Shown here one piece after another: positions 5,373 to 43,957 of a DNA stretch of 44,042 bases. Positions within the stretch are counted from its first letter, which is position 1; the number at the start of each line of letters is the position of its first letter. The notes below the pieces were generated by a model that was not told where the DNA came from, ran no database searches, and was given only the letters and a program-made list of their open reading frames with translations. The stretch comes from a virus, in IMG/VR virus record IMGVR_UViG_3300030406_001289, positions 563 to 44,604 of that record; one strand, given 5' to 3'. Position numbers and translations under genes: made by a program.

Positions 5373-5561
5373 TGATTCCTCCGTTATAGCTTATATCACG
5401 TAAGTACAGGGCATTTTCTATATGTGGGTGACCTCGTAACCGCGAGGGGCCAACTAGTAAAATGGTAGCCAACCTACTTCTTTTATTATAAATATATATG
5501 ATTTTGCATTTTTATATGCGTAGCTGTCCTAGACAGGGGCATATCATGCAAGTGATATATA
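5373..5561 (-). promoter_or_regulatory. Structured leader of the capsid mRNA
   Basis: About 180 bases between the predicted transcription start and the capsid ATG contain no credible frame. Two hairpins stand out: CTGTC/GACAG (5524-5536, 3 nt loop) and CCTCG/CGAGG (5432-5447, 6 nt loop). Between them is a copy of the GGTAGCCAACC motif (5464-5474) that recurs in the neighbouring gaps. The leader could stabilise the message or set translation; this is inference. Confidence 0.4.
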
Positions 5562-5589
5562 GTTATATTTAATTAAATTGTTTTGTCAA
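5562..5589 (-). promoter_or_regulatory. Sigma-70-type promoter for the capsid gene
   Basis: On the minus strand TTGACA (5589-5584) is followed after 16 bases by TATAAC. It starts only 8 bases beyond the scaffold stop. It would add extra transcription of the capsid and decoration genes on top of read-through from the main late promoter. The -35 is perfect and the -10 matches at 5 of 6 positions. Confidence 0.65.
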
Positions 5590-5596
5590 CACTTAA

Positions 5597-6552: not shown

Positions 6553-8145
6553 TTAACCAAAGCTCCCTTCATCGGGATCGTTGTCTGATCCTGATGTTCC
6601 TGTTCCTTGTCCTGTTCCTTGTCCTGAGTCTACACCTCCAGCCTGTTCTGAATCTACGTCTTGCTGTTGTTGTTCTTCAGTTGAAGTGGGATCTGATGTT
6701 GCTCCTATATCTAGCTCTTGACCTACACCAAGGGCCTCTTCCGTAGCTGCTTTTTCTAAATCTGCCTGTTCTCTTTGTGCTGCTTTTTCCATAGCCTCAT
6801 CAAAAGACTTTTCATCCAAACCAAGAAACCCTGTAAACCCTCTTTGTTTACCTAATTGAGATAGTTCTTGCGTTCCTAATCTATCTAAATCAGACACAGT
6901 ACCAAAAGCAGATACGTTACCAAATATATCTTGATAACTACCTGTTTGAGTATAACCACCTGTTGTAGCCATTCCTGTAGCAGGGTCAGTGTCTACGCCT
7001 ATTAAATCTGTTGCAACACTATAATCAGGTCTTCCTGTTACATCATTAGTGCCTACTGTAGTTACGTCTACCCCTAACATACCAGCAACTGCTCTGTCAA
7101 AGTCATCTACACTCATCTGAGTTGGTACTGTTCCTGTTAAACTTTGTGTGGGAACACCTGCTAAGTCTGATACTGATACCCCTACAACTTGACCTCCTAA
7201 AACACCTAAGTCTGTAGGACTTTGTACTCCTTTAGAAATATTAAATCCAACGTCTACTAAATCTGTTAATGCTGCTTTTGCAGCCGCCTGTAGTGCTGCG
7301 CTACCTCCTACGTTAGAGTTTATAGGATTTCCAAGTGCATCTACAGCTATAGAAACAGATGGGCCAGTTACCGCAGACGTTAAACTAGGCACTCCTGGTG
7401 GACTAGCTAATTGTGATGCCACTCCTATCGCAGTGTCTGCTACTTTACCAAACATAGGCTCTTGCGTTGCTACAGCCTCATCTACCATCATATCTACTAC
7501 TTCTCTGGCTAAATCTTTTTGTTTATCAGGGCCTAGTGAAGCAACTGTGTCTGCTACTTGTTGCGAACTAAAACTTCTTCCAATATCTGCTGAACCAGTT
7601 CCAAAAGCACCTATGTTTCCTAGTGCGCTTGTCATTACATCTGGAGATATGCTAAGTGTTGCCTGTCCAAATCCAAAGCCAAGAGCATCTTGTACATCTC
7701 TTTGCATATCTCCACCTACGTCAGCGTGTACTATATCTTCTTTGTCTTTGCCATCAAAATCTACATTTTCAAACATTTCCATTTGTTTGTCCATGTCATC
7801 TTTTTCTTCATCCTCATCTTCGGACATATCATCTTGCATTGCTTGTATATCTATTTCTACAATTTCTATCTGTGGTTTGCTTTGCGCTTCTGTCTCAACA
7901 GGCTTACCCTCTTCATCTACCATATGTAATCTACCGTCCTGTTGCATAGACATAAGACCACACTTCGCCATCATACGCATCTCTTCAAGGTGTTTTAGGC
8001 CCCAGTATCGCACAACGTCAGCAGGTATTACATACTCACCCTCTGATAACATAACAGGTATATCGTCAGCTACTTCTTCTTCTAAAGAGCCAAACGGCAC
8101 TTCGTTCTCTGGTTCTTCGTTCATCATGTTATTTTTTCCCATCAT
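6553..8145 (-). CDS. Virion-associated acidic protein of unknown function
   Basis: A 530-residue acidic protein between portal and scaffold. Residues about 28-52 contain DIPVMLSEGEYVIPADVVRY, a motif of the type 'SEGEfVIPAdVV' seen in several phage structural proteins in this genomic position, including tape-measure C-termini. The middle is Asp/Glu-rich (AMQDDMSEDEDEEKDDMDK), the rest is Gly/Val/Thr-rich with few charges, and the C-terminus is a low-complexity Gln/Ser/Gly tail. Its start overlaps the 68-residue gene upstream by 17 bases. I do not recognise an enzyme domain. The place in the operon suggests a capsid-assembly or internal head component. Confidence 0.6.
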   Translation of the reverse strand: MMGKNNMMNEEPENEVPFGSLEEEVADDIPVMLSEGEYVIPADVVRYWGLKHLEEMRMMAKCGLMSMQQDGRLHMVDEEGKPVETEAQSKPQIEIVEIDIQAMQDDMSEDEDEEKDDMDKQMEMFENVDFDGKDKEDIVHADVGGDMQRDVQDALGFGFGQATLSISPDVMTSALGNIGAFGTGSADIGRSFSSQQVADTVASLGPDKQKDLAREVVDMMVDEAVATQEPMFGKVADTAIGVASQLASPPGVPSLTSAVTGPSVSIAVDALGNPINSNVGGSAALQAAAKAALTDLVDVGFNISKGVQSPTDLGVLGGQVVGVSVSDLAGVPTQSLTGTVPTQMSVDDFDRAVAGMLGVDVTTVGTNDVTGRPDYSVATDLIGVDTDPATGMATTGGYTQTGSYQDIFGNVSAFGTVSDLDRLGTQELSQLGKQRGFTGFLGLDEKSFDEAMEKAAQREQADLEKAATEEALGVGQELDIGATSDPTSTEEQQQQDVDSEQAGGVDSGQGTGQGTGTSGSDNDPDEGSFG

Positions 8146-12058: not shown

Positions 12059-12329
12059 TCTGTCTATCTCTTTCTTTGTTTATTAGTTTGTGTAGTGCCT
12101 GATGCGTTATTGCCCTCCCCGTTTTAGCAGATAACCATCTAGCAACCTCCCTGTAACTACAGGTCTTCAAATATTCTTTAGCCTCAAGTAGCGCATCTAA
12201 CTGCTCCTGTATAGGCAATAGTATGGTATTGTCGTTTTCATCAGCCTCATACCCAAATGGTATCTGTCGGCTCTTTCTTACAACTGGCCTCCAAGTATTT
12301 TTAGTGGGTGTTTCTTCCATCTTCCTCAT
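11910..12329 (-). CDS. HTH-containing DNA-binding protein between terminase subunits
   Basis: A 139-residue protein overlapping the small terminase gene (29 bases) and the large terminase gene (149 bases). Residues about 55-90 (CSYREVARWLSAKTGRAITH followed by QALHKLINKERDR) read as a helix-turn-helix of the resolvase/recombinase C-terminal type. The C-terminus is a charged helix. The N-terminus is basic and Trp/Arg-containing (NTWRPVVRKSRQIPFGYEAD). An alternative ATG lies three codons in. Position suggests a packaging-site binding partner of the terminase or a late-operon regulator; neither is shown by the sequence. Confidence 0.65.
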   Translation of the reverse strand: MRKMEETPTKNTWRPVVRKSRQIPFGYEADENDNTILLPIQEQLDALLEAKEYLKTCSYREVARWLSAKTGRAITHQALHKLINKERDRQNAVQSYRHYASKAKEYAEKEKSIQEKILYASVEQRGDRIETEWADKLLA

Positions 12330-12705
12330 CTTCTTCGTACTTAGGTTCTGCCTTTGGTGGGAACATTATCATACTTTGTGGCTCTGCCTGTACAGATATA
12401 CGCTCCGTTTTAACTATGCCCGTTCTATCTAGGATTTCACGGGCTGCTGATATTCTATCTCGATTACCTAAAGCAGTAGGGTCAGTCAATACTCCCGTCA
12501 TCGCCATCGCTGCCATCGGCCCATTCGACGCTAGATACATTTGCGTCCTATCTATTATTTCGTTCTGTAGTGTTTGTATTACAGTGCTAGTCTTTGTGTT
12601 TTCGCTATATCCTGCAATCTTCATAGCAGTCCGTATGTTGCCATTGGCATCGTCAAACAAGCAGTCTAAGAATGTCTTCTGTCTATCTGTTAGTTCTTTT
12701 GCCAT
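12301..12705 (-). CDS. terS: Terminase small subunit
   Basis: A 134-residue protein with the common small-terminase pattern: LTDRQKTFLDCLFDDANGNI near the N-terminus, AMKIAGYSENTKTSTVIQTL as the HTH region, then LQNEIIDRTQMYLASNGPMA and SAAREILDRTGIVKTERISV. In the family this subunit recognises the packaging site and stimulates the large subunit's ATPase. The acidic C-terminus (AEPKYEEDEEDGRNTH) could contact the basic extension of the large subunit. It overlaps the upstream gene by 23 bases and the HTH gene by 29. Confidence 0.8.
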   Translation of the reverse strand: MAKELTDRQKTFLDCLFDDANGNIRTAMKIAGYSENTKTSTVIQTLQNEIIDRTQMYLASNGPMAAMAMTGVLTDPTALGNRDRISAAREILDRTGIVKTERISVQAEPQSMIMFPPKAEPKYEEDEEDGRNTH

Positions 12706-13636
12706 TAGATTTTCTAGCTTTCTTTTGTTTGTAGTCTTGCATTATTCGGGCAATACGTTGTCTTTGCGCTCTAGTTATATTACCACCACCCTTCATACCA
12801 AGTGGCTTCTTAAATTTAGTGGTTGCACCTGATCTAGCGGTCATGCCCCCCATACGCAAGTCGGGCCTACCTGCTGGATACGCAAAGTGACCCTCTGATT
12901 TGTATCCTACGTCAAAATCAGGATCGTCATCTGGTATGTCTTTAAATTCTATATTACGACCTAATAATTTACTTACGAGTTGCTCCACTATGTTTTTATC
13001 ATCTGGGGCAGATTTTATACTACGATCTAACCTATCTCTATCATCATCTGGCCTAATAGATTTTGCTCTATTTAAATCTAAATTACCTGAGAACTGTGGG
13101 CTTTTATCTCCATACCCAAAACCTTTTAGCCTAGCTCCAGACCCTACTAAATCTGAATCTTCCTTTTGCATAGGAGGAGTTGGTTTTTCTCTAGGCATTG
13201 GAATAGGTGATGGTGCAGATACTAAACTTCTTTCTAGTCTATCTCTTTTTTCATTCAAAAATGGGGTGGGCTTTTTATCTTTTTGCCTAGAAGATGTTAA
13301 AGGTATATTTCTACCTGCATCTAGTTCTGAACCTCTACCCCCTCCGCGCAAATCAAATCTGGATGTTCCTTTATCTTCTGTAGAATACCTTTGCGTTATA
13401 CCCCTATAATCTCTATAATCTATGCCCATTAAATTTTTAAATTCTTTTAATAGTTGAGCTTTACTTTTTTTAAAAGGCACTCTTCGTAGACCAGATACCT
13501 CATAGCGTTCAAGTTGTTCTATTATTTTTGCTATCTCAGCTTCTCTATTTTTTCTCTGTTGTTTGAGTCCCAATTGCCTAATTTTATTGCGACCAGCTTC
13601 TCTAGCCCTATCGCCCTTATTTCCCTGTGTTGTCAT
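12683..13636 (-). CDS. Basic, disordered late protein of unknown function
   Basis: A 317-residue Lys/Arg/Gly/Asp-rich protein at the start of the packaging operon. The N-terminal 70 residues are helical and basic (GNKIRQLGLKQQRKNREAE-like). The middle is low complexity with Pro and charged motifs, including two related elements, RDRLERSLVSAPS and RDRLDRSIKSAPD. The C-terminus (GGNITRAQRQRIARIMQDYK) is strongly basic. A longer frame begins ten codons upstream at a TTG; I chose the ATG of MTTQGNKG. I recognise no family. It may be a nucleic-acid-binding or capsid-internal protein. Confidence 0.55.
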   Translation of the reverse strand: MTTQGNKGDRAREAGRNKIRQLGLKQQRKNREAEIAKIIEQLERYEVSGLRRVPFKKSKAQLLKEFKNLMGIDYRDYRGITQRYSTEDKGTSRFDLRGGGRGSELDAGRNIPLTSSRQKDKKPTPFLNEKRDRLERSLVSAPSPIPMPREKPTPPMQKEDSDLVGSGARLKGFGYGDKSPQFSGNLDLNRAKSIRPDDDRDRLDRSIKSAPDDKNIVEQLVSKLLGRNIEFKDIPDDDPDFDVGYKSEGHFAYPAGRPDLRMGGMTARSGATTKFKKPLGMKGGGNITRAQRQRIARIMQDYKQKKARKSNGKRTNR

Positions 13637-13671
13637 AGCGCACTCATCTTTCTCTGTAATGTACAAAAATA

Positions 13672-13774
13672 AGAGGCAGGGCTGATTTTGTTTCGTATAA
13701 AGAATAGTTAGTTCCCAAAATGAACTACACCCTTTATGCCTACCAAATTAAGGACTACGAACAACCCTGCCTCT
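13672..13774 (-). other. Nested inverted repeat / structured RNA element before the packaging genes
   Basis: AGAGGCAGGG (13672-13681) is perfectly complementary to CCCTGCCTCT (13765-13774). Inside, TTGTTTCGT (13688-13696) pairs with ACGAACAA (13757-13764) with one bulge, ATAAAG (13697-13702) pairs with CTTTAT (13732-13737), and TAGTTC/GAACTA (13709-13727) closes a 7 nt loop. On the minus strand the last stem is followed by TATTTTTG, as in a terminator. It lies within the late transcript, between the first gene and the packaging genes. Confidence 0.5.
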
Positions 13775-13838
13775 AACGCGCGTACCCTACCGTCTGTCCA
13801 AACCTAGACCACAACAAACCTCGCAAGAATAAGCATAG

Positions 13839-14123
13839 CTAGGTTGGCTGGTCTTCTCCCTCTTTAGATTTAAGTATGCCCTTACTATCGGTGTAACCCT
13901 CTTCACGCAACAGCTTACATACCTCGCCCAACTTCAATCGCCTACAAGGGAACTTCTCCCGAAGCGCAACCCAAGTATAGTACTCTGTATGTGATGGTAG
14001 AGTTAGAGGATCAATTACGAACCCCTGTTCCATTACGCGATAGAACCTCTCCAGCAGAAACTTACCTGAGTCTGAATATAGTTGTATGGATTTGGTTTTG
14101 TTTGTCAAGTTATTTTTTCTCAT
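13839..14123 (-). CDS. Small first gene of the late operon, unknown function
   Basis: A 94-residue protein (starting MRKNNLTNKTKSIQ) and the first gene after the consensus late promoter. It reads as a mixed alpha/beta protein with SGKFLLERFYRVMEQGFVID, HTEYYTWVALREKFPC and a Lys-rich C-terminus (GILKSKEGEDQPT). The segment 'RLKLGEVCKLLREEGYTDS' could be a small winged-helix recognition element. A longer frame starts 16 codons upstream, but the ATG chosen has AAAGG at good spacing. No family recognised. First-gene position and size suggest a regulator of late expression. Confidence 0.55.
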   Translation of the reverse strand: MRKNNLTNKTKSIQLYSDSGKFLLERFYRVMEQGFVIDPLTLPSHTEYYTWVALREKFPCRRLKLGEVCKLLREEGYTDSKGILKSKEGEDQPT

Positions 14124-14224
14124 CGGATTACCTTTTTTACTTGACGAACCTCCTTTTGTATGGTATAACATTCGTTATCGAATGGGGAGGGGTAAATATA
14201 TACACTAACTCGCAAGTATTAGTT

Positions 14225-14253
14225 ATTATATTTAATAATCCGCGATATGTCAA
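14225..14253 (-). promoter_or_regulatory. Consensus sigma-70 promoter driving the minus-strand (late) arm
   Basis: On the minus strand TTGACA (14253-14248), a 17-base spacer and TATAAT (14230-14225) form a perfect match to the housekeeping bacterial promoter. The start would fall near 14218, about 95 bases before the first minus-strand gene. A perfect 12/12 promoter implies host polymerase use. Confidence 0.85.
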
Positions 14254-14598
14254 CATTTTGTGTACTAGCCGTGTGTGTGTCTAGTAGTATGCGACAAAGT
14301 GGTTGACACTCCATTTTCCCTATCCGTTGCACACTTCATATATACCATACGTAGGCGGGGTGGTGGCCCCTGCCCGACACATCTTAAATAAAAAATATCA
14401 TTAGCCCCCCCTCCTAATCAGTACCAATCTAGTATAAATTGCCGCTTTTCAATTCTTATTTAACTTTTATCTGTAATTCTTAATCTGTAATTAATGTTAG
14501 CCAGGGCAATTATAGGATAACCCTAGTTTATACGCTCACATATACCCCCTACCATATCGGGTATAGTGGCGCTTTTCTGGCGCGGTAGCTTTTTGGGG
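14254..14598. other. Gene-free divergent region, candidate regulatory/origin segment
   Basis: No credible frame on either strand. It contains a GC-rich hairpin (GGCGGGG 14354-14360 with CCCCTGCC 14367-14374, one bulge), a run of seven C at about 14405, a two-copy 10-base direct repeat, and an inverted repeat TATACCC/GGGTATA (14541-14565, 11 nt loop). Direct repeats, an AT-rich block and divergent transcription are the usual setting for a replication origin or operator cluster; this is inference. Confidence 0.45.
14469..14492 (+). repeat. Two-copy direct repeat ATCTGTAATT
   Basis: ATCTGTAATT occurs at 14469-14478 and again at 14483-14492, a period of 14 bases within an AT-rich stretch of the divergent region. 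Spacing is a little over one helical turn, as in binding sites for a dimeric or cooperative DNA-binding protein. Confidence 0.55.
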
Positions 14599-15945: not shown

Positions 15946-15976
15946 CCCCTTGCTGTTATGGCTTGGGGGGTTTTTT
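15942..15976 (+). terminator. Rho-independent terminator after DUF932
   Basis: AACCCCCC (15942-15949), a 15 nt loop, GGGGGGTT (15965-15972) and a run of six T. It ends the first early transcript. Because the next gene is on the opposite strand and converges, the same hairpin may also slow that transcript, though no T-run is present in that direction. Confidence 0.9.
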
Positions 15977-18531: not shown

Positions 18532-19137
18532 ATGTTTGTTGGTTGGTCAAACCAAATGCAAAACGAGTACGAGGTACAAGAGATACCTTATGAAGCGACT
18601 AAGCCCTTTATACTAGAGGTGCATTACGCTAGAAGAATGCCATCTATTAGCCACGCCTACGGATTATTCCGCAACAGTATGCTGGTGGGGATGGTATCTT
18701 ACGGAAGCCCTGCATCACCTTGGCTATGCAAAGGCATATGTGGTGAGGAGCATAGGCATAACGTAATTGAATTAAACAGGCTAGTCTTAAAAGATAACCT
18801 ACCAAACGAGGCATCGTTCTTGGTGTCTCGCTCCCTAAAATTATTACCGAAGCCAAAGGTCGTGGTGTCCTATGCCGATACCGCGCAAGAACATATTGGA
18901 ACTATCTATCAAGCCTGTAACTTCCTATTCACTGGCACAACAAAGCCACGTACAGATATGGCAGGGGCAGATGGTAAGCACTCACGTCATCATCTGGGCG
19001 ATAGACAAAACAGAATTAATAGATCAGCGAAGCACCGCTACGTATATTTTATCGGATCAAAGAAAGATAAAAAGACATTGCGTAATGCGCTTCGATATAC
19101 TATTGAAGATACCTACCCAAAATTTTATGAGGAGTAA
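18532..19137 (+). CDS. mom: Mom-family adenine DNA-modification enzyme
   Basis: A 201-residue GNAT-fold protein of the phage Mu Mom type. Family stretches are HYARRMPSISHAYGLF (31-46), LVGMVSYGSPASPW (51-64), ELNRLVLKDNLPNEASFLVS (80-99) and VVSYADTAQEHIGTIYQACN (111-130), followed by FLFTGTTKPRTDMAG. Mom adds a carbamoylmethyl group to adenines in DNA, which protects phage DNA from many restriction enzymes. The C-terminus is basic (NRINRSAKHRYVYF, then a Lys-rich helix). A good AGGAG precedes the ATG. In Mu the gene is controlled by Com and Dam; no Com-like gene is seen here, and the gene sits behind a near-consensus promoter. Its position ahead of the replication genes fits modification of new DNA. 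Confidence 0.85.
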   Translation: MFVGWSNQMQNEYEVQEIPYEATKPFILEVHYARRMPSISHAYGLFRNSMLVGMVSYGSPASPWLCKGICGEEHRHNVIELNRLVLKDNLPNEASFLVSRSLKLLPKPKVVVSYADTAQEHIGTIYQACNFLFTGTTKPRTDMAGADGKHSRHHLGDRQNRINRSAKHRYVYFIGSKKDKKTLRNALRYTIEDTYPKFYEE

Positions 19138-33394: not shown

Positions 33395-33855
33395 TACGAA
33401 CTACTCCTTGATCTTTGGAGGGCGCGACTTCCAAACCAGAATGATATAATAGCAGCGAATATTCCCTGCGTTTCTTCATCCCACAGTGTCTGTATCGCTA
33501 TCTCCCATACGATACCGTCAGTATATATTAGGCCATATAGCGCAGTGCCTTTGATGACTGCGAATAGTGTAAAAAATAAGTATGTTATAACTGGCCTTAC
33601 ACTTGCCCTCAGTCCTGCCATGAAGCCCGTTGACTTCATTGACTGATCGTGTTTGTACAGAGCCTTGCTCTCGCTTATATCGGCCTCTATATTCAGTGCC
33701 TCTAGCTTTTGTGTGTGCGCTAGTTTAGATGCCTCTATCTGGCGATCCATCATGGCAAGTTCGTGCTTCCTGTCTTGCCAATCGGAGAACATATCAAAGG
33801 CTTTAGGTAGCGCGGAACCTGCAAATCCAATTAATGATCCTAGTATTGTAATCAT
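33394..33855 (-). CDS. Holin (three-TM, GTA-holin-like)
   Basis: A 153-residue protein with three hydrophobic segments: residues 3-18 (TILGSLIGFAGSALPK), 90-112 (PVITYLFFTLFAVIKGTALY) and 130-148 (GIFAAIISFWFGSRA). A charged helix (DWQDRKHELAMMDRQIEASK) lies between the first and second. This layout matches the three-TM holins of gene-transfer agents and marine phages. It would make holes that release the GH24 endolysin two kilobases downstream. It overlaps the giant protein by four bases (ATGA). Confidence 0.7.
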   Translation of the reverse strand: MITILGSLIGFAGSALPKAFDMFSDWQDRKHELAMMDRQIEASKLAHTQKLEALNIEADISESKALYKHDQSMKSTGFMAGLRASVRPVITYLFFTLFAVIKGTALYGLIYTDGIVWEIAIQTLWDEETQGIFAAIISFWFGSRALQRSRSSS

Positions 33856-36800
33856 TGTTTAAATGCCTCTTCCATAAGTTTTTGTTTTTCATTTACTAAC
33901 ACTTCATACTCAGAGGTTAATAAAGAACTTTCTTTTACTAAAGCAGATTGAACTACTCTATCGTTCAACCCTGCCAACATATACACTTCACGGTTATTCA
34001 TTGCATCTTCAGTAACTGTTATAGCCATCCTCTTTGCATTTTCTATTAATTTTGCTCTAAGTTTATCTACAACGGGTTTCCTGCTATCGTTTAAACTAGA
34101 TATATAATATAGATTTTTATATTGATCGGAGTTTATCGTTTCCATTAAGTATTCAAGATACCTTTCCCCTTCGTATATAGATTTTTTGTAGTACAAAAAG
34201 GAGTTTAATTTTTTCTTTTGACTAGTTCCTGGTATTTTTATATTAGGATCTGTAAATTTTGGTTTTATTTTTAGTTCCGCTAAAGTAGCCGACAAACCTG
34301 CCGTGGGTATTCTAGTACCTGGTCTAGTAAGCACGACAGTATTTCCAACTTTCTTCAGTGTACTTTCTAAATATGTTGCATTAGTGTCTGTGTCATTAAA
34401 TATTTTAGCAGCCTTAGCTCTGTTTACGATGCTACCAAACTCATCTATTCTTGGATACAATCCTGCATTTTCTTCTCCAAGTATGTCTTTTAGAGTCTCT
34501 CTTGCTCCAGGAATTTTAGAAGTCATTTTTGCTACGAATAATTTAAGGGCATTCATATTTACATAGGAGTCTTTTATAACAGGATCGTAAAAAAAGTTTG
34601 CTTGTTTATTACCATCTTCATCTACACTAGCAAATGACTCTGCTGTTCTGGACACTATGTTAGGAACTAGACCACCTACAATTGTGCCACCTGCCTTTGC
34701 AGATGCAGCTATTGCTTTCTCAAGCATATTGTCTGATCGAGGAGAGTATACAGTGTCCATAATTTCTCCCATACTTTTTAAGTAAGTTTTATCTGAAATC
34801 ATAGTTACTAAGTTTTTAAACATACTCTTTGCCACAAAAAATGACAGGGTGTTAAAATCTTCTCTTTCAGCAGGAGATAGTTTTGCCTGAGATAACTCAT
34901 TAGTTATGTATTGAAAGTCAGAAGCTAATGCTGCTATCTGTGAAAAAGGATCTAATCTAGATATGGGATAATATTTATCGTTTATTTTTATTGAGTACGG
35001 CTCCCATCCTGTCTTTGTCATTCTATCTCGTTCTGCATAATCTGTAGGGCCACCGCCAGTTATTATACCTGCTTGTGCTAAACTATACGCACCCGTAAGG
35101 TATGTCATACCTGCTAGTTGTCTATTTATTCTTTGTTCTTTTATTAGCTCTTCTGTTCTACTTAGCTCTCTAAACTTTTTAGCCTGTTCTTCTGTGAGAT
35201 CATCTACGTCTACATCCCTAAGTTGTTTTAGCATTTTTCTGTTTTTAAATGCATCAGGGCTTAATAAACCAAGAGGGGTTCTTTCTAATGAATATATCAG
35301 TAGATTTAGTGGGGTACGCACAAATGGCATTAAGGCTGTTCCTAAACCAATACCTGACTTATCTAGTATTCTACGAAACGCCTCACCTCCTTTTGTAAGA
35401 GCATTCTGTTGTTGGAATGTAGCTTCTAAAAATTCTTTCTCTGCGTCCTGTAGCATCTTTGGTGTAGGGTTAGCTACTAGATACTCTATCATTTCAGAGG
35501 CATTTAAGTTTTTAGGATCTAGTGCTTCACCTGCACCATCATCACCTACTAATTTAAAATGTTTTTCGTCTACTGTAACTTTTGTACCATCAGCTAATTC
35601 TACCACTTCAGAACCACCTTTTCTTTGTAGTTCATATCTAATAGCTCTAACCTGCCTAGAAGCCATTTCGTATAGAGCTGCATTATCTGCTATTGCTTTA
35701 AACATAGTATCAAATGCTGCCATACCAGTAGTAGGAGCGCGAATAACCCTACCTACGATACTAGGTATAGATTGCACAGTTCCAGCCTTTTCTGATATTT
35801 CATAACGCCCATATCTAGGATCTACAGGCATTTCTTTTCTTAAAACTTCTAAAAACAAACGTCCTGTTTTTGCAGCGTTAGATACGGACGCACCATGAGA
35901 AGCTACCATAGCGTCTAATTCTTTCTTGTATAAATTAGACATACCTTCTTTTGATACTATTTGTGTAACAAATTGATCAGGTGGTAAATTATCTGTGTTT
36001 TTACCGTATCTTCCTGCACGTATATTATAAAATAAATTATCTATGACCAGAGGATTTTCTTTACCTTGCCTTAAAAGATTGTCTATTTCTTTTATTTGAA
36101 GAGGTACAACATTTGCTTTTCCGCTACCACTTGCTTTACCTACGGACATACCTCGTAGCCTTTGATACAGATCTCCAAACAACATGACGCTAGAGGGGTC
36201 AACCTCTTGGCCTGTAAATTTAGCACCTAATAATCTTAGTGACCCTCTTGTTGCACCAAATGTTCCCTCTATTGCAGTACGTGCAAACTGTACTCCTAAG
36301 TTACCTGCTATATTTACTAGCTGAGTATCAACGGCAGACAATATAGAGTTGTACCAATATTGCCCAATACCTGCTTTTACATTCTGTAACCAGTTCTTTT
36401 GTACGCCCTTCTTTAACAGATCAATGCGTTTTTGCATTGCTGCGGAACCTACAAATTCTTCTTTAGACATTGATTGTATAAGAGAGTCTATGTCTTTACC
36501 ACCCGACTCAACTAGATCATCCATCCATCTTGCTTTGGGGCCATTAGGTATGTTAATATTAAATGACTGAAGTAATCTACCCGACTCGTTAGCTATCCCA
36601 TTTACAGTATTTTGGACGGATTCATATGCTAATAGCTGTTGAGTGTATGCTGCTTTTACTTGTTTATATTCAGATAGTGATTCTCTACCTTGTTTTTTTA
36701 ACGTGTTTGCTTCTCTAGCCAGATCAAACAATACGTCTGCTGTATCAACTAATAATTGTCTAGCAGCTAATGCATATTCTGTAGCTCCTTTTAGACCAGA

Positions 36801-38108
36801 GCCTAATACAACATTGCCCTCTGGGTCTGTACGTAAACGCAATGTGCCTTGATTTTTAGACACAACATCTAGCATACCATTTACATCTTTGTGTCCTAAT
36901 AAATCAGCAGCTTGTTCTAAAGACTTATTATTAGTTTGAGTAGGAGGCCATGTTCCGTTAGGATTATCCTTTAAATAATTATCTCTAAGGGCCTCGCCTG
37001 TTTCATTTATAAGATTATATACTTCGTACTGACTAGAATTTATTCTATTTAAATTTATAGATCCTACATATTTATCTATAAACTCTGTAGATTTACCTTG
37101 TTTTTCTAGTGTGTTTTTAATTACCATTTGCGATCTAGCAGAAAGATCTCCAGAAGGATTGCCATCTAGTTTAGCTTCGTCAGCTAATTCTTCTAATTGC
37201 TCTACTGTTAAAGGTTTTCCTTTTTTACCTAGAGGACTTTCATCTACAGTTCTTGGTTTTATGGTTCTACCGAATAGGCTAACCAACTGAACTGCACCAT
37301 CCATAACTGTTCCTATGCCTAGACCCTCTGCTGCCATTTTAATACGGGCAGTCATTTCTGAGTCACCCTCATGGTATTTAAGAAGCTCACCTACATCTTT
37401 TAATATTGGAACATCTGTAGATGCTGCTAGGTCAGCTAGTCTAGCATCTGTTGGATCAAATACTAATTGTTCTGCTACACCTGCTGTTGCACCTCCTTTT
37501 GCCATAGACTTTACGACATTGTTATTTGCTATAGAGACTGCTTTTTTACCCAAACCTGTGGCTAGTAAATTAGTATTGCCACCAGACAAACCTATTCTTG
37601 ATAGGCCATACGCACCCATCTTTGTAATCCCACCAGCAACTTTTAATATTCCTAATCCTGGAACAAGACCTACTCCTAGTTGCCCTACGCCAGATGCTAA
37701 TTGACCTGCCATTGTTTGAGGCTCTGCTATTTCTACCTCATAGTCTTCGTTAGGAACAACGTCTATAGAACCATTAAGTAAATCTTCTTCTATATAATTA
37801 CCTGCGTCCAAGGCTAGGTTATACATCTGCCCTATACCTTTAGACGCACCATAGGCAATGCCTCTTCCTACATCACTTACATAGTCACCAAAACCAAAGT
37901 CATCTTCAGATTTATCTGGAGCAGGTATTTCATCTCCTATAAATTGTTTTCTTGATTCGCCTATAGTTTCAGGAGATTCTAATCTAGGAGCAGATGACAT
38001 ATCTTCTTGTTCCTTACGTACCTGTTGTTCAAATTCTTCTTGAGTCATGTCAGGTTCGTTATCAATACGAGTTATTATTTCTTGTAGTCTTTGCTCTATA
38101 TTTTGCAT
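33852..38108 (-). CDS. Large internal virion / DNA-ejection protein
   Basis: A 1418-residue protein, the largest here. The N-terminus is acidic and disordered; residues about 70-200 are Gly/Ala-rich with hydrophobic helices (MAGQLASGVGQLGVGLVPGL and similar) that could insert in membranes. The rest is long helical segments, then a central part with ALMPFVRTPLNLLIYSLERT. The C-terminus is a basic coiled helix. This matches the size and nature of T7 gp16-type internal core proteins that form the ejection channel. I see no lysozyme or transglycosylase motif. It lies with other internal proteins in the late arm. Confidence 0.7.
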   Translation of the reverse strand: MQNIEQRLQEIITRIDNEPDMTQEEFEQQVRKEQEDMSSAPRLESPETIGESRKQFIGDEIPAPDKSEDDFGFGDYVSDVGRGIAYGASKGIGQMYNLALDAGNYIEEDLLNGSIDVVPNEDYEVEIAEPQTMAGQLASGVGQLGVGLVPGLGILKVAGGITKMGAYGLSRIGLSGGNTNLLATGLGKKAVSIANNNVVKSMAKGGATAGVAEQLVFDPTDARLADLAASTDVPILKDVGELLKYHEGDSEMTARIKMAAEGLGIGTVMDGAVQLVSLFGRTIKPRTVDESPLGKKGKPLTVEQLEELADEAKLDGNPSGDLSARSQMVIKNTLEKQGKSTEFIDKYVGSINLNRINSSQYEVYNLINETGEALRDNYLKDNPNGTWPPTQTNNKSLEQAADLLGHKDVNGMLDVVSKNQGTLRLRTDPEGNVVLGSGLKGATEYALAARQLLVDTADVLFDLAREANTLKKQGRESLSEYKQVKAAYTQQLLAYESVQNTVNGIANESGRLLQSFNINIPNGPKARWMDDLVESGGKDIDSLIQSMSKEEFVGSAAMQKRIDLLKKGVQKNWLQNVKAGIGQYWYNSILSAVDTQLVNIAGNLGVQFARTAIEGTFGATRGSLRLLGAKFTGQEVDPSSVMLFGDLYQRLRGMSVGKASGSGKANVVPLQIKEIDNLLRQGKENPLVIDNLFYNIRAGRYGKNTDNLPPDQFVTQIVSKEGMSNLYKKELDAMVASHGASVSNAAKTGRLFLEVLRKEMPVDPRYGRYEISEKAGTVQSIPSIVGRVIRAPTTGMAAFDTMFKAIADNAALYEMASRQVRAIRYELQRKGGSEVVELADGTKVTVDEKHFKLVGDDGAGEALDPKNLNASEMIEYLVANPTPKMLQDAEKEFLEATFQQQNALTKGGEAFRRILDKSGIGLGTALMPFVRTPLNLLIYSLERTPLGLLSPDAFKNRKMLKQLRDVDVDDLTEEQAKKFRELSRTEELIKEQRINRQLAGMTYLTGAYSLAQAGIITGGGPTDYAERDRMTKTGWEPYSIKINDKYYPISRLDPFSQIAALASDFQYITNELSQAKLSPAEREDFNTLSFFVAKSMFKNLVTMISDKTYLKSMGEIMDTVYSPRSDNMLEKAIAASAKAGGTIVGGLVPNIVSRTAESFASVDEDGNKQANFFYDPVIKDSYVNMNALKLFVAKMTSKIPGARETLKDILGEENAGLYPRIDEFGSIVNRAKAAKIFNDTDTNATYLESTLKKVGNTVVLTRPGTRIPTAGLSATLAELKIKPKFTDPNIKIPGTSQKKKLNSFLYYKKSIYEGERYLEYLMETINSDQYKNLYYISSLNDSRKPVVDKLRAKLIENAKRMAITVTEDAMNNREVYMLAGLNDRVVQSALVKESSLLTSEYEVLVNEKQKLMEEAFKQ

Positions 38109-38123
38109 GAGTACACTTTCTTA

Positions 38124-39257
38124 TTATTCGTTACCTAATATGCTACGGCGTGGATCTTTGGCTTTTTCTTGCATAGTCCTTCTATCCGCACCTGATGATC
38201 TAGCAAAAGTAATAAGATTGTTTCTATATTTATCAATAAGTTTTAAAGCATCTGCCTCAGTAGCATCTTTCCCTAAAATTTTTAAAATTTCTTTAGGATC
38301 ACGATTATTTTTTGCTATTTCTTCAAGTGCTTTATTTAAACGAGTAGTTGTGTCAACGTACATTTCGTTTTCTATCTCAACTATTTTTTTGTTTAATTTT
38401 TCCATTTTATCAGTAAATTTTTTTCCTGCTTCTTCTGCTCGACTTTTATATGTTTTTACAAATTCTGATTGTAATTTAGCTTGTTCTTTGTACAAAGGTG
38501 CTAGTATATTTCTTACAGCAATAGGTTGTGCAAGTGCTTGTGCGTCTTTGTCTTGCATAGTTAATGCAGTTGCTACATCTTGAGAAACAGACATTGCTGT
38601 TCTTTTACCACGTAGAGAGAACGGCAATCCACTAGGTTGGATACCCCTTGTAGGAGTACCATACGCATACTGTGTATCTGGCTCTAACAGTGTGCCTCTA
38701 CCAGACGCAACAATTCTTCTTTCAGCCCTACGCATTGACTCTACAGGATCAGGCACACCAAAACCTAATTTAAATATATCCTTTAGGCTCATGTCTTTTT
38801 CTTCTTCTTCAACGGCAGGAGCGTATGTGCCTTTAGATGTTCTTATGTCTGATAGTTTAACTTTCTTTCTATCTGATGCCTTATATATATCTTCTGGATT
38901 TGCAATGTTGTATTGCTTCGCCATATCTTTAAACCAGTACCCTGTTTTATTTGTGTCTGCTTGTATGGCTTTTTTAACAGCAGCAAAGTTTTCATCACTA
39001 GACATGGCATCTTTGTAAAAACCTACAGGTGCATCAGGAAGATTAGATGTTAAAAAATTTAATTGCCCTTGCAGACCTGCTTTTAGTTTATTATCTAAGG
39101 CTTTATTTTTAGCAATATTAGAGCGTAGCAGTTTTACGTGTTCTGTAACTGCCTTTCTGTCTTCTTCGCCTTTTCTCTTAATGTTCTCAGCAATCTGTGT
39201 ACCTGCCGAAAGTACGAAGTTTTGACCAAACTCTTTTAAATCAGACATTAATCCCAT
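38124..39257 (-). CDS. Internal virion protein, coiled-coil
   Basis: A 377-residue helical, basic protein (MGLMSDLKEFGQNFVLSAGT...) with coiled segments (LQSEFVKTYKSRAEEAGKKF, KLNKKIVEIENEMYVDTTTR). The middle carries GVPDPVESMRRAERRIVASG, a pattern shared by core proteins next to the gp16-like gene in this phage group. Probably an internal core or ejection partner. It starts four bases after the previous stop. Confidence 0.6.
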   Translation of the reverse strand: MGLMSDLKEFGQNFVLSAGTQIAENIKRKGEEDRKAVTEHVKLLRSNIAKNKALDNKLKAGLQGQLNFLTSNLPDAPVGFYKDAMSSDENFAAVKKAIQADTNKTGYWFKDMAKQYNIANPEDIYKASDRKKVKLSDIRTSKGTYAPAVEEEEKDMSLKDIFKLGFGVPDPVESMRRAERRIVASGRGTLLEPDTQYAYGTPTRGIQPSGLPFSLRGKRTAMSVSQDVATALTMQDKDAQALAQPIAVRNILAPLYKEQAKLQSEFVKTYKSRAEEAGKKFTDKMEKLNKKIVEIENEMYVDTTTRLNKALEEIAKNNRDPKEILKILGKDATEADALKLIDKYRNNLITFARSSGADRRTMQEKAKDPRRSILGNE

Positions 39258-39261
39258 TGTA

Positions 39262-39867
39262 TTATCCCATCATTAGTGTTGTAGGCTCTTCTTCTTCTTG
39301 AGGGTCATCTTCCATGTCCATAGCCATCATGTCATCGTCCATAGGCATCATGGAATCCATACCGTCTGGTGGAGCCATCATGCCAGATGGTTCTTCCATC
39401 ATGTCATCATCCATGTCACCTTCCATTGCCATACCTTCTTCGCCCTCTTCTCCTTCAGCTAAAGTTGCAAGAACCTGATCTACTTGAGCCTGTCGTTGCA
39501 TGGCCCCTGATTCATCTCTTCTTGCGACCTCTATGTCTGCTTCCTGACCTATGAGAAGTATTAAATCTGTAAAAGGCTCTTTTAGTATAACGCCCATGTC
39601 AGCAGATATTTGACCCATCATAAATGCATTCATAAGTACGCCATCCACGATGGTGTCTGCTGTAATACCCATTTCAAGTAGTCGCACAGTATTGATTGCG
39701 TTTTCTTCTTCATTAACAAACTTTTCGTACAAAAACATATAGTACTCATCAGGATCAGAATAATCAGGGGGTGTCTCAAAAGGAACAGACCCTAATTCTC
39801 CAGATACTAATGATTGTCCTGGTATTGCACTTTCAAATTCACTGAACGCATTATCTTCCATAGCCAT
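39262..39867 (-). CDS. Acidic structural protein with Met/Asp-rich tail
   Basis: A 201-residue protein. The first 140 residues are helical (ENAINTVRLLEMGITADTIV, FTDLILLIGQEADIEVARRD). The last 60 are a Met/Asp/Glu/Pro low-complexity tail (DMDDDMMEEPSGMMAPPDGM). Such tails in virion proteins may be cleaved or stay flexible inside the capsid. Good AGGAG upstream. Function unknown. Confidence 0.6.
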   Translation of the reverse strand: MAMEDNAFSEFESAIPGQSLVSGELGSVPFETPPDYSDPDEYYMFLYEKFVNEEENAINTVRLLEMGITADTIVDGVLMNAFMMGQISADMGVILKEPFTDLILLIGQEADIEVARRDESGAMQRQAQVDQVLATLAEGEEGEEGMAMEGDMDDDMMEEPSGMMAPPDGMDSMMPMDDDMMAMDMEDDPQEEEEPTTLMMG

Positions 39868-39883
39868 AGCTTATTACTCCTTT

Positions 39884-40078
39884 TTAATCTGTTGTGTTTG
39901 TTTGTAACATACTACGTATAGCATCTTGATACGTTCTAGCTGTAGTAAATGTATCAGTAGGTGCTATTGGCTTAGACGTAGGTTTCTTTTGCTCTCTAAG
40001 TAATCTAGTTCTTTCAATGTCTGTTCTTGACAATGCAGTAGGAACTCTTACTCTACTAAACGGATTAGTTATTCCCAT
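39884..40078 (-). CDS. Small late protein of unknown function
   Basis: A 64-residue basic protein (MGITNPFSRVRVPTALSRTD...) with GAGGAGT upstream of its ATG. Its C-terminal half is Thr-rich (KPIAPTDTFTTARTYQDAIR). No family recognised. It sits between two virion genes. Confidence 0.55.
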   Translation of the reverse strand: MGITNPFSRVRVPTALSRTDIERTRLLREQKKPTSKPIAPTDTFTTARTYQDAIRSMLQTNTTD

Positions 40079-40091
40079 TTATAGTACTCCT

Positions 40092-41831
40092 CTATGATAA
40101 GAATGGTATTTTTAAATTGCTTGCAAATCCAACTATAGCTTCAGCACCCTTCTCTGTACCAGCTAGATTACCAAATATATTACCCAATATACTACCTGCT
40201 GCACCCAAGAAACTGCCACCACCTTCTTTTCCTCTAGCGGCTGCTTCTGCTTGTAGTGTAGCTATAGCTAAGTTGTTTTGTCTCTGTAGATCATTTTGAC
40301 CAGACTGATAGAAATAGTCGGCCTCATCTCTAGCTAACTGTACAAGATTATTTAGCGCAGTATTAGATCTATTAAGAATAGCGGTAGCATTAAATTGGTT
40401 AGCTGCATTCTTAGCTGCAGTATTTGCGGTGTTTGTTTGTCTTCTAAAGACAGCATTTGCTTGTGCTATGGCTAGTTGGTTTCTAGAATAAAACTCATCT
40501 TTTGCCCTAGCCGTGTTCACATTAAACTGTGCGATAGCATTTGCCTGACCTGCATTATATTGAGATATTGCAGTTCGTTGACTAGCGTTGTTTAAATTTA
40601 CTGCCTGTTGCAAATTACTAAAGAATTGATCTGTCTGGTTTTTACTGGTTGCGTTAAATTTACGTGTAGCGTTTATCTCAGCTGCATCAGTAAACAGGCT
40701 CTGCACCCTGTTCTGTGTATTTAATACGGCTGTTTGTTGTCTAATGTCCAACTCTTTTATGTCGGCAGTTAGTAGGTTTGCTGCGTTTGTTATTTCTGCC
40801 TGTTGCCTGTTACTTAGGTTCTGCTGTTGGAACTGTGCATATATCTGTGCATCTGCTTGTGCTATAGGTAGTCCTGATTTTAGTGCAGTCTCTAATAACA
40901 TCTCTTGATATACGCCACTAGATGCAGTTATTCCCCTACGTGCCAGTATATTCTCTGCCCCTTGTATGGCGTTTGCTGCCCAAGGTGGTACGGAGTCACC
41001 TGCAAAGTCCTCCATTATAATACCTAGTTGACCCTTTACAGTTGATCTTGCATCTACCTCCTCCTGTTGCGCTCTTACTAATCGTATATCATTTACAAAT
41101 TGCTCTGCTTCCATGTCTTGTTGAGCTATTGCATTTGCTACTGTCTGGGCTGAAGACACATTTGCGTCAGTTCTAGTAACCTGTTGTGCGTCTGTTACAC
41201 CTGCTAGTGTCTGTCCTGCTGCTAAATCTCTAGTTTGGAATGCGGGGTCTGTCCGATCTATGATTGTTCCTGGTGCGTTAGGGTCTATTTGTTCTGCTGT
41301 TAGTCTTGCACCAGAGGGCAGTTTTGCATTAGGATCTTGCGATATATCTGTTTGTACACCTTTAGCACTTTGATACCCAAACGGATCTACTAATCCTCTT
41401 TGACCAGCTGCATCTTGTATAAATGCTTGAGCAGTTGTATCTGTAGGGGTTCCTTGAAAACCTTGACTTATAGCAACTGCCCTAGTATCTAGCTGTTGAG
41501 TTGTTACGTTGGGGTTTACGGATGGATCGCCCAATCGCTGATCTACTATCTCACCGCCCAATAAGTCGCCACGTATCTGAAATGCCTGTTGTCCTGTAGT
41601 TGGATCAGTAGTAACTACTGGGTTACCTTGCTCATCAAAGTTAAATAAATTAGGATTTGTAGTAGGCGTAGGCCCACCTTCAGGTATTACAGGGGCCATA
41701 GGAGCAGGGCTTTCGCCCTCTTCTTCCTTATTCTGCCTTTCTACTGCTTCTTTTATTTCAGCATCAGTAAGCTCACGAAACTCTCCATCTTGTCCTATAT
41801 TTGGATCAAATATTTGTAGTCCTGTTGCCAT
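40092..41831 (-). CDS. Internal virion protein with Gln/Asn/Ala-rich coiled-coil
   Basis: A 579-residue protein. The first half is a low-complexity Thr/Asp/Gln-rich segment. The second half is a long Ala/Asn/Gln helix with repeated AxxxFNxxxA spacing (QANAIAQFNVNTARAKDEFY, AKNAANQFNATAILNRSNTA). The C-terminus is a Gly-rich amphipathic segment (GGGSFLGAAGSILGNIFGNL) that may be membrane active. This fits an ejected core protein. The ribosome-binding site is weak. Confidence 0.6.
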   Translation of the reverse strand: MATGLQIFDPNIGQDGEFRELTDAEIKEAVERQNKEEEGESPAPMAPVIPEGGPTPTTNPNLFNFDEQGNPVVTTDPTTGQQAFQIRGDLLGGEIVDQRLGDPSVNPNVTTQQLDTRAVAISQGFQGTPTDTTAQAFIQDAAGQRGLVDPFGYQSAKGVQTDISQDPNAKLPSGARLTAEQIDPNAPGTIIDRTDPAFQTRDLAAGQTLAGVTDAQQVTRTDANVSSAQTVANAIAQQDMEAEQFVNDIRLVRAQQEEVDARSTVKGQLGIIMEDFAGDSVPPWAANAIQGAENILARRGITASSGVYQEMLLETALKSGLPIAQADAQIYAQFQQQNLSNRQQAEITNAANLLTADIKELDIRQQTAVLNTQNRVQSLFTDAAEINATRKFNATSKNQTDQFFSNLQQAVNLNNASQRTAISQYNAGQANAIAQFNVNTARAKDEFYSRNQLAIAQANAVFRRQTNTANTAAKNAANQFNATAILNRSNTALNNLVQLARDEADYFYQSGQNDLQRQNNLAIATLQAEAAARGKEGGGSFLGAAGSILGNIFGNLAGTEKGAEAIVGFASNLKIPFLS

Positions 41832-41854
41832 ATCACTATCTCTTTCTTTTTATC

Positions 41855-43957
41855 TTAGCCCACTCTTGGGTCTGGAGTAACTGGCCCTAGCGCACCTACT
41901 TGCCCTTGCTCTGCAACTTCCATAAGCCCTTTGTTTATGTTTTGAGTAGTTCGTTCTGCTACTCGCTCTGCTGCTAATACGGCAGGTAAAGATCCTGCTA
42001 CTGGTGCAGCTTGTGCCATCATACCCGTTGGTGCAGGTACTCCTGTAAGTTGCTCTGCTATTCTATTTGTTTGTAGGCCATATGTATTTGCTAGGTCTTT
42101 TAACTCAGTGGCGCGAGTATTTAATGTAGATAGAATATTTGCCCTATCTGCATTTGACAGGTTCTCAAAGTTTCTTAGTTGATTTGTTAATGCAGTTAAA
42201 TCGCTACCTATAGCTGAAGCCTGACTTCCTACGCCACTTATAGCAGTTGATAGCCCTGTTTGTCCAGTCATTAGACCTGCCTGACCTTGAAACAAAGTTG
42301 TAGGATCGCCTGTTGTAGGGTCAACTGGTGCCTCACCAATACCTTCCTGTATACCTGTTATACCTTGTTGTGCGGTAGTAAGGTCTTGGGCTAATCCTGC
42401 CTGACCACCAAACAATGTGGCATCTGGTGTAGGGGCTGTACCAATACGCCCTGTTATGTCTTCTTGTCCTGAAATAAGACCTGTAGTATCTTCTCTTATA
42501 CCAGCAGTTTGCCCCATTAAAGTTTGAGGTTGCCCAGTTGCTCTAGTTCCAATAAGATCAGAAACATCACTAATATCATCTCTTACGGGTTGTAGATTAG
42601 ATTCAGTTTGTAATGCATTTGCTGTAGCAGTGTTTACTGCTGTTGGTGACATTATACCTGCTGATGAAGAGCTTGGTTGTTCTGGAAGTGCATTTGCAAC
42701 AGCAGTTGCCACTTCACTGGCTATTGTAGAAGGTAGACCTGCTATCACAGATGCTAAATCAGGCCCTTCTTCCTCCCCATCTTCTGTATCTGTACCACCA
42801 GTACCACCAGTGCCTCCTGTACCACCAGTACCACCAGTGCCTCCTGTACCACCAGTACCACCAGTTGCACCATCAGTTGCACCACTAGCACCAGGAAGTA
42901 AAGCAGCATCTCCAATGTTAGGTCTAGGCAATACTCCTACCTCATATCCTGCTACAGGAAGTTGGTTGTTAGGATTCTGTACGTTTAACGCTGCCCTTTG
43001 CTCTGGGGTGCTTGAGTAGAAATCACGAATGTATCTCTGTGAGTCGGTCAAGCTCTGATCTGGCGTATTAACTAAATCTTGGAATGTGTCAAATACGCGA
43101 GTAGGATCGGGTTCTGCTGGAGACATTATTCCTGCCGATTGATCTACTGGAGGTTCATCTACTATAGGAGTGTCAGTAGTACGTATTCCTGGAGTATAAT
43201 TATCTACAGGTAGTTGAGCATTAGGTTGTTGTGCGTTTAATTGTCTCCTCACTTCTACGGGGCTAGAGTAAAAATTACGTATATATATTTGCTCTGGCGT
43301 AAGACTTTGATCTGGAGTGCTAATTAATTCCGCAAAAGAAAATTGTCTATTTGGATCTGGGGGAGTAACAGTAACTGTATTTTGTTCTGGCTGTGGCTCT
43401 GGCTGTGGCTCTGGCTGTGGCTCTGGTTCTGGTTCTGGTTCTGGCTGTGGCTCTGGTAACACAACATTTTGACCTTCTACAACAGGCGCACCAGGATTAA
43501 AGGGTCTATCTTCTTTAAACCCTTGTGATGTATAATGTTGTATTGCATATTTTGCTAATTCTAAAGAGTCTGCGCTACCGTCTTCCCTATATACACCTTT
43601 TTCAGTAGCATCTTGTTTAAGATCAGGGTTAGCCTCCACGTAATTACTTACTGCAGCAGGATCAAAACCTATAGTAGTTGGTAGTGATGGTATTTCAGAT
43701 GGCCCTGCTAATTGTCTTCCTGAAACAGGATCGGTTACAGTGGTGGTAAAAGTAGTAAGACCTCCTTGATCTAGAGGTTTAAGAAATACATTAGGAACAC
43801 CTATTGATCCCTCTCTATTTTCTCCCCCTCCAAATTGTTTAAAGTGATCTTCTACACTAGTAAATTCACCCCTAGATACTGCTTGTACGACATCTGGATT
43901 AGCCCTTGCGTACTGTTGAGGATTAAAACCCTCTGGTAATCTATATCTTTCAACCAT
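41855..43957 (-). CDS. Repeat-rich virion protein (Pro/Glu and Gly/Thr repeats)
   Basis: A 700-residue protein. The N-terminus holds two units of the 'Y...NPD...HY...G..E.R' type (FNPQQYARANPDVVQAVSRG and YVEANPDLKQDATEKGVYRE), a surface-protein spacer motif. Next is a Pro/Glu repeat (PEPQPEP) and two about 55-residue duplicated blocks (FAELISTPDQSLTPEQIYIR and FQDLVNTPDQSLTDSQRYIR). These are followed by a GGTGGTGGT run and a beta/coiled C-terminal half. Probably an elongated tail or fibre-associated component. Tandem repeats at the DNA level make its length prone to change. Confidence 0.6.
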   Translation of the reverse strand: MVERYRLPEGFNPQQYARANPDVVQAVSRGEFTSVEDHFKQFGGGENREGSIGVPNVFLKPLDQGGLTTFTTTVTDPVSGRQLAGPSEIPSLPTTIGFDPAAVSNYVEANPDLKQDATEKGVYREDGSADSLELAKYAIQHYTSQGFKEDRPFNPGAPVVEGQNVVLPEPQPEPEPEPEPQPEPQPEPQPEQNTVTVTPPDPNRQFSFAELISTPDQSLTPEQIYIRNFYSSPVEVRRQLNAQQPNAQLPVDNYTPGIRTTDTPIVDEPPVDQSAGIMSPAEPDPTRVFDTFQDLVNTPDQSLTDSQRYIRDFYSSTPEQRAALNVQNPNNQLPVAGYEVGVLPRPNIGDAALLPGASGATDGATGGTGGTGGTGGTGGTGGTGGTGGTDTEDGEEEGPDLASVIAGLPSTIASEVATAVANALPEQPSSSSAGIMSPTAVNTATANALQTESNLQPVRDDISDVSDLIGTRATGQPQTLMGQTAGIREDTTGLISGQEDITGRIGTAPTPDATLFGGQAGLAQDLTTAQQGITGIQEGIGEAPVDPTTGDPTTLFQGQAGLMTGQTGLSTAISGVGSQASAIGSDLTALTNQLRNFENLSNADRANILSTLNTRATELKDLANTYGLQTNRIAEQLTGVPAPTGMMAQAAPVAGSLPAVLAAERVAERTTQNINKGLMEVAEQGQVGALGPVTPDPRVG
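42794..42866 (-). repeat. 27-base tandem repeat coding GGT units
   Basis: The 27-base unit beginning at 42794 (accaccagtaccaccagtgc..., ending ctcctgt) occurs at 42794 and 42821 and, in part, at 42848. It is built of 9-base GGT-coding subunits. It encodes (GlyGlyThr)n in the virion protein. Slippage can change the copy number in multiples of three bases, keeping the frame. Confidence 0.8.
42930..43352 (-). repeat. Duplicated about 55-codon block in the repeat-rich virion gene
   Basis: Two copies (about 43190-43352 and 42930-43108) encode blocks with TPDQSLT, YIR(N/D)FYSS, LN.Q.PN.QLPV. Boundaries are approximate. The copies have diverged. Confidence 0.65.
43385..43456 (-). repeat. 6- and 12-base tandem repeat coding Pro-Glu/Pro-Gln
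   Basis: A run of TGTGGCTCTGGC 12-base units and GGTTCT 6-base units encodes alternating Pro-Glu/Pro-Gln. All units are multiples of three. Confidence 0.8.

Follow-up and report, generated by a model that had tools for sequence, protein, structure and literature searches.

The closest described layout to the one reported here is the pR'-tR'-Q system of phage lambda, in which a strong host-type promoter with a conserved spacer gives a short transcript ended by an intrinsic terminator, and the late genes downstream have no promoter of their own directly after that terminator (PMC7171158, PMC4825925). In phage HK022, the put RNA is a conserved structured RNA of about 70 nt with two stem-loops, placed some hundred nucleotides after the promoter and before the terminator (PMC9378689). 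The Gifsy-1 sRNA gene isrK produces one transcript with two fates, a short RNA when transcription stops at a terminator and an mRNA when it continues into a phage operon, and IsrK acts in trans on its own read-through message (PMC4825925). Finally, the P7 protein of phage Xp10 is a small phage protein that passes RNA polymerase through intrinsic terminators (PMC6624301).

We analyzed a late-gene locus in a 44,042-nt stretch of DNA from an uncultured marine phage (IMG/VR record IMGVR_UViG_3300030406_001289, positions 563 to 44,604; hereafter, the window). Just after the first late gene, this locus carries a 103-base hairpin that is probably a transcription stop signal. Phages of the HMO-2011 type are abundant in the sea, and we know of no description of the timing of their late genes; a search of the open literature on HMO-2011-type phages with terminators or promoters also found no study of late-gene timing.

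The hairpin at 13672-13774 and its counterparts in relatives

A sequence-only reading of this DNA had pointed to nested inverted repeats at 13672-13774, and the fold bears them out. On the late (minus) strand, the span folds with -37.8 kcal/mol, compared with a mean of -21.85 for shuffled sequences (z -4.9; 0 of 200 shuffles as good). The outer stem is exact over 10 bp (13672-13681 pairs with 13765-13774) and extends on the late strand to a helix of 13 bp, one G-U pair among these. The inner helices of the four successive ones originally proposed are present as well, not as stems in a row but as a three-way junction composed of the outer helix, a second helix of 6-7 bp, a small hairpin to the side and a long arm with a 6-bp closing helix. 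The tract noticed after the last stem was confirmed as TATTTTTG, which follows the stem directly on the late strand (13671-13664) and forms the U-rich tail UAUUUUUG. The plus strand has a weaker fold (-30.6, z -4.4) and no U tail. The window contains what defines an intrinsic terminator, a GC-rich hairpin that on the transcribed strand runs directly into a U-rich tail.

Exact 10-bp inverted repeats as such are not rare in the window (11 exact matches within 130 nt, at about nine places), and by free energy alone 13672-13774 is not its best stretch. One site in the window combines a GC-rich stem of 10 bp with a U-rich octamer, and such a combination turned up in 3 of 200 dinucleotide shuffles. 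Scanning of the whole window against Rfam gave no family at the gathering score, and relaxed thresholds yielded nothing either, with BsrC as the best match at 18 bits against a gathering score of 38; no DNA similarity to cultured phages was found for 12600-14500.

Relatives of the window's clade were collected from IMG/VR using terminase proteins and DNA patterns, and aligned. Most relatives possess, in place of the 103-nt form, a shorter hairpin of about 37-45 nt (GGCAGGG-loop-CCCUGCC-UUUUA...) with a U-rich tail after it; only the window and two relatives (L003 and L002/L099) have the enlarged loop and thereby the 103-nt size. In a divergent clade (L110, L111, L114-L122), different sequence makes up the hairpin (GGGCAGUAGG...CCUACUGCUCC); L117 has yet another hairpin with a run of U after it, and it has upstream sequence in common with L114, the terminator hairpins of the two being different. 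Crossing stems in the divergent clade were considered as a terminator/antiterminator pair and dropped, since L117 identifies the outer stem in that clade as the terminator.

A GC-rich hairpin and then a U-rich tail are found in every distinct relative, with arm sequences that are wholly different between the two clades; the linker and terminator together are only about 34% identical between them. The tails range from UUUUAUUU to the weaker UCUCUUAU, are broken by an A in all main-clade forms and are weak in several divergent forms. Pairing holds for 419 of the 420 consensus-structure cells in 12 compact sequences, and the variation in the terminator stem is one-sided with pairing kept (GC/GU, UA/UG). 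Since the stem and the U-rich tail are retained in two clades while their sequence changes, an intrinsic terminator is the best reading of the hairpin. Preservation of the stems in relatives, on which the original proposal depended, holds for the outer stem but fails for the inner helices, which most relatives lack; because their loop is usually much shorter, most of the helices first described are dispensable.

The conserved block and the first late gene

The span proposed at the outset proved to be only half of the element, as it misses a hyper-conserved block at 13801-13845 (minus strand) that lies over the stop codon of the first late gene. The two halves are joined by a linker (13775-13800, minus strand) with a GUAGGG that has two alternative pairing partners, UCUA in the block and, in compact relatives, the U-rich tail. 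The block is under strong constraint: 33 of its 45 columns are invariant among eight haplotypes, and in its 41-nt core 37 of 41 positions are identical between the window and L111, compared with 5 of 17 fourfold-degenerate sites, that is saturation, in the adjoining 94-aa gene (Fisher p 8e-6). The TAG stop of this gene sits within the block at the same place in every relative. The DNA pattern used for collecting contigs selects for part of the block, so presence was counted among relatives retrieved by the small terminase, and the block is found in all 30 of these whose contigs reach far enough. Ten relatives without a full match have stretches that stop short of the block or begin inside the element (the latter in L089 and L121), and the contig of L105 carries the block in another fetched stretch, L189. 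A 41-nt non-coding sequence that is frozen beside saturated synonymous sites must do something specific.

The block likely acts as RNA. A hairpin CCUAG...CUAGG is possible within it, with three one-sided changes that preserve pairing and two-sided changes at two pairs. The competing folds CCUAG-CUAGG and UCUA-UAGG differ little in energy in the main clade, which does not hold for the divergent clade. Because the single-sequence folding z of the hairpin is weak (-1.1 to -2.4) and its covariation score was reached by 44 of 500 shuffled controls, the block may instead act as sequence or as DNA. Searched with a covariance model of the block, 58 other loci, 13 of them from cultured relatives, gave only chance-level matches, and no copy was found in GTDB genomes. 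A likeness of GACGGTAGGGTAC to the ops element was set aside, as it is not kept in the divergent clade.

The first late gene itself (13839-14123, minus strand, start codon at 14123) encodes 94 aa and corresponds to the first late gene of cultured HMO-2011-type phages (CRP-345 gp81, CRP-1 gp67, CRP-603 gp77 and CRP-2 gp73). The protein belongs to no known family, with weak HTH_33 matches in 3 of 50 members. Its AlphaFold models have pLDDT of 61 and 67, with a core of three helices predicted at middling confidence (mean pLDDT 67), and their structural neighbours include no convincing fold match. All 77 distant homologues of the gene have a TTGACN-N15-17-TANAAY site at the gene start, and none of the 77 has a terminator within 250 nt after the gene. 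Terminator and block are thus specific to the window's clade. The first-late-gene family (loci L205-L284) is a large uncharacterised phage family with at least 589 loci, a motif HIPHSDVFYVREA and weak DUF7076 matches; its gene start overlaps a TTGACA-N16-TATAAC-like promoter.

Promoters and genes around the hairpin

The late promoter (14225-14253, minus strand) is TTGACA-17-TATAAT, which matches the consensus at 12 of 12 positions. Promoter and spacer are kept in every relative that reaches them, in some with a single change (T-to-G or similar). A second promoter-like site, TTGACA-16-TACAAC, lies inside the start of the 94-aa gene (14081-14108, minus strand). Other features were also observed here. 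A conserved plus-strand promoter-like site, TTGACG-17-TATAAC (14141-14169), faces the late promoter, and at its start there is a palindrome CATTCG-TTAT-CGAATG (about 14174-14189) that changes to ATACG/CGTA in the divergent clade. A GC-rich hairpin GGGGCCACCACCCC lies on the minus strand (about 14350-14380), upstream of the late promoter; a GGGCAGGGGCCACC motif is also found in L098, L101, L104, L107 and L108.

The hairpin lies 3' of the first late gene, as the sequence-only reading had it, but not directly before the small terminase gene (12301-12705), since a gene of 317 aa (12683-13636, minus strand) intervenes. The latter is modular and different in each, or almost each, relative, though at least one distant member has a C-terminal end that seems recognisable. 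The U-rich tail ends 27 nt before the start codon of this gene at 13636, so no promoter fits between them, and no minus-strand promoter with at least 10 of 12 matches was found between the terminator and position 7269. Expression of the variable gene, of the small and large terminase genes and of the portal gene thus seems to rely on transcription through the terminator. For the capsid gene, a separate promoter-like site is present, TTGACA-16-TATAACTATA (5589-5562, 11 of 12 matches), which is common to many relatives. Within 5373-5596 (minus strand), which includes this site, the leader of the capsid gene has a recurring GGCCCC...ACCCAC pattern that may be another RNA element.

A Pfam scan of 36 window proteins, with the large late structural proteins of 33852-43957 and small ORFs lying outside it, identified no Q (PF06530, PF03589, PF06323), sigma factor or phage polymerase. 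A Mom-like DNA modification protein is encoded at 18532-19137 on the plus strand (PF25680, E 5e-36).

A putative attenuator and its comparison with known systems

The hairpin had originally been offered as a packaging recognition site, an attenuator in the late transcript or a stable small RNA. The attenuator fits best, since a hairpin with a U-rich tail is present in both clades with differing arms, its direction is that of the late strand, a perfect promoter lies upstream and there is no promoter room downstream; a packaging site and a small RNA are less likely. Judging from sequence, we favour, with moderate confidence, an intrinsic (Rho-independent) terminator on the late transcript that is used as an attenuator of the packaging genes. 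Host RNA polymerase would start at the late promoter and transcribe a short leader and the 94-aa gene; most transcripts would end at about 13664-13671, giving mainly a short message of this gene, and the read-through fraction would supply the genes further downstream as far as the promoter-like site of the capsid, among them the variable gene, the small and large terminase genes and that of the portal. We infer that termination occurs at this point and, from the layout of the locus, that read-through is regulated.

The block, transcribed just before the terminator, may set the read-through fraction via its folding or via a bound factor, for which the 94-aa protein is one candidate; alternatively, it may bind polymerase as put does, or switch between its competing folds. 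By itself the hairpin is of an ordinary kind, a terminator; what draws interest is the frozen block next to it. We put forward tentatively, as one possibility that is far from certain, that the block is a new RNA element of phages, one that causes polymerase either to pass the adjoining terminator or to stop there, alone or with the 94-aa protein. If true, it would be a late-gene switch of HMO-2011-type phages that needs neither Q, nor a sigma factor, nor a phage polymerase, and for the timing of late genes in these phages the locus would be a compact switch accessible to testing.

The same arrangement could reflect gene dosage, with a plain partial terminator yielding much message of the 94-aa gene and little of the terminase and portal genes without regulation, and with the block as an RNA-processing or 3'-end stability signal. 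The only other strong terminator-like hairpins in the genome, near 3741 (minus strand) after the capsid group and near 15971 (plus strand) after the DUF932 gene, are consistent with dosage tuning, as is the capsid gene's own promoter-like site. We regard this explanation as conceivable but doubtful, for it leaves unexplained a 41-nt non-coding block that stays frozen while the terminator arms turn over. It is unlikely that the terminated or processed 3' end (block and terminator, about 130-190 nt) serves as a stable sRNA of the phage with host or phage messages as its targets: no promoter is seen directly before the block, the Rfam and GTDB searches gave neither a family nor a copy, and the large loop change in the window would greatly alter the RNA. 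On the other hand, 3'-derived sRNAs usually consist of a conserved block with a terminator, and the Gifsy-1 IsrK transcript is both an sRNA and a read-through mRNA (PMC4825925). Any stable small RNA would arise as a side product of this same terminator.

The weak folding support for the block, with conservation of sequence rather than structure, would also suit a DNA site near the terminase genes, either for packaging (pac/cos) or for binding of a regulator, with or without the hairpin. In all 30 relatives the block precedes the small terminase gene by 0.8-1.8 kb, a position that is the one point in favour of packaging, but this distance varies, the hairpin and U-rich tail are strand-specific and kept, and several changes in the block preserve RNA pairing, G-U pairs included, which makes a DNA site quite improbable. 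Sensing of translation by a leader peptide was rejected as highly implausible. A 10-codon ORF (MLILARFVVV, 13833-13803) restarts 2 nt after the stop of the 94-aa gene and overlaps the block, and its frame is open in all relatives with some changes synonymous or Met to Ile; yet its start is ATG, ATT or ATA, and Leu/Arg and Val/Asp changes occur, so that relatives do not share a short ORF with a conserved start codon before the terminator. Programmed frameshifting was likewise rejected, as no slippery site is common to the relatives.

The proposed attenuator can be compared with each of the known systems. The activity of Xp10 P7 would fit the 94-aa protein by analogy of function, not through an established link in sequence or fold; P7 acts on polymerase and is not known to use a dedicated RNA site. 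With IsrK, the likeness is one of layout, in that a single transcript might either stop as a short RNA or continue into the phage operon. Like put, the block lies between promoter and terminator, but it comprises one poorly supported hairpin of 45 nt at most and not two stem-loops in about 70 nt. The locus is closest to lambda, with which it shares the strong host-type promoter with a conserved spacer, the short transcript with an intrinsic terminator at its end and the late genes behind it that have no promoter directly after the terminator. It differs from lambda in that no Q was matched by Pfam, the capsid gene has a promoter-like site of its own, a protein gene lies between promoter and terminator, and the terminator is accompanied by a conserved block that has no lambda counterpart.
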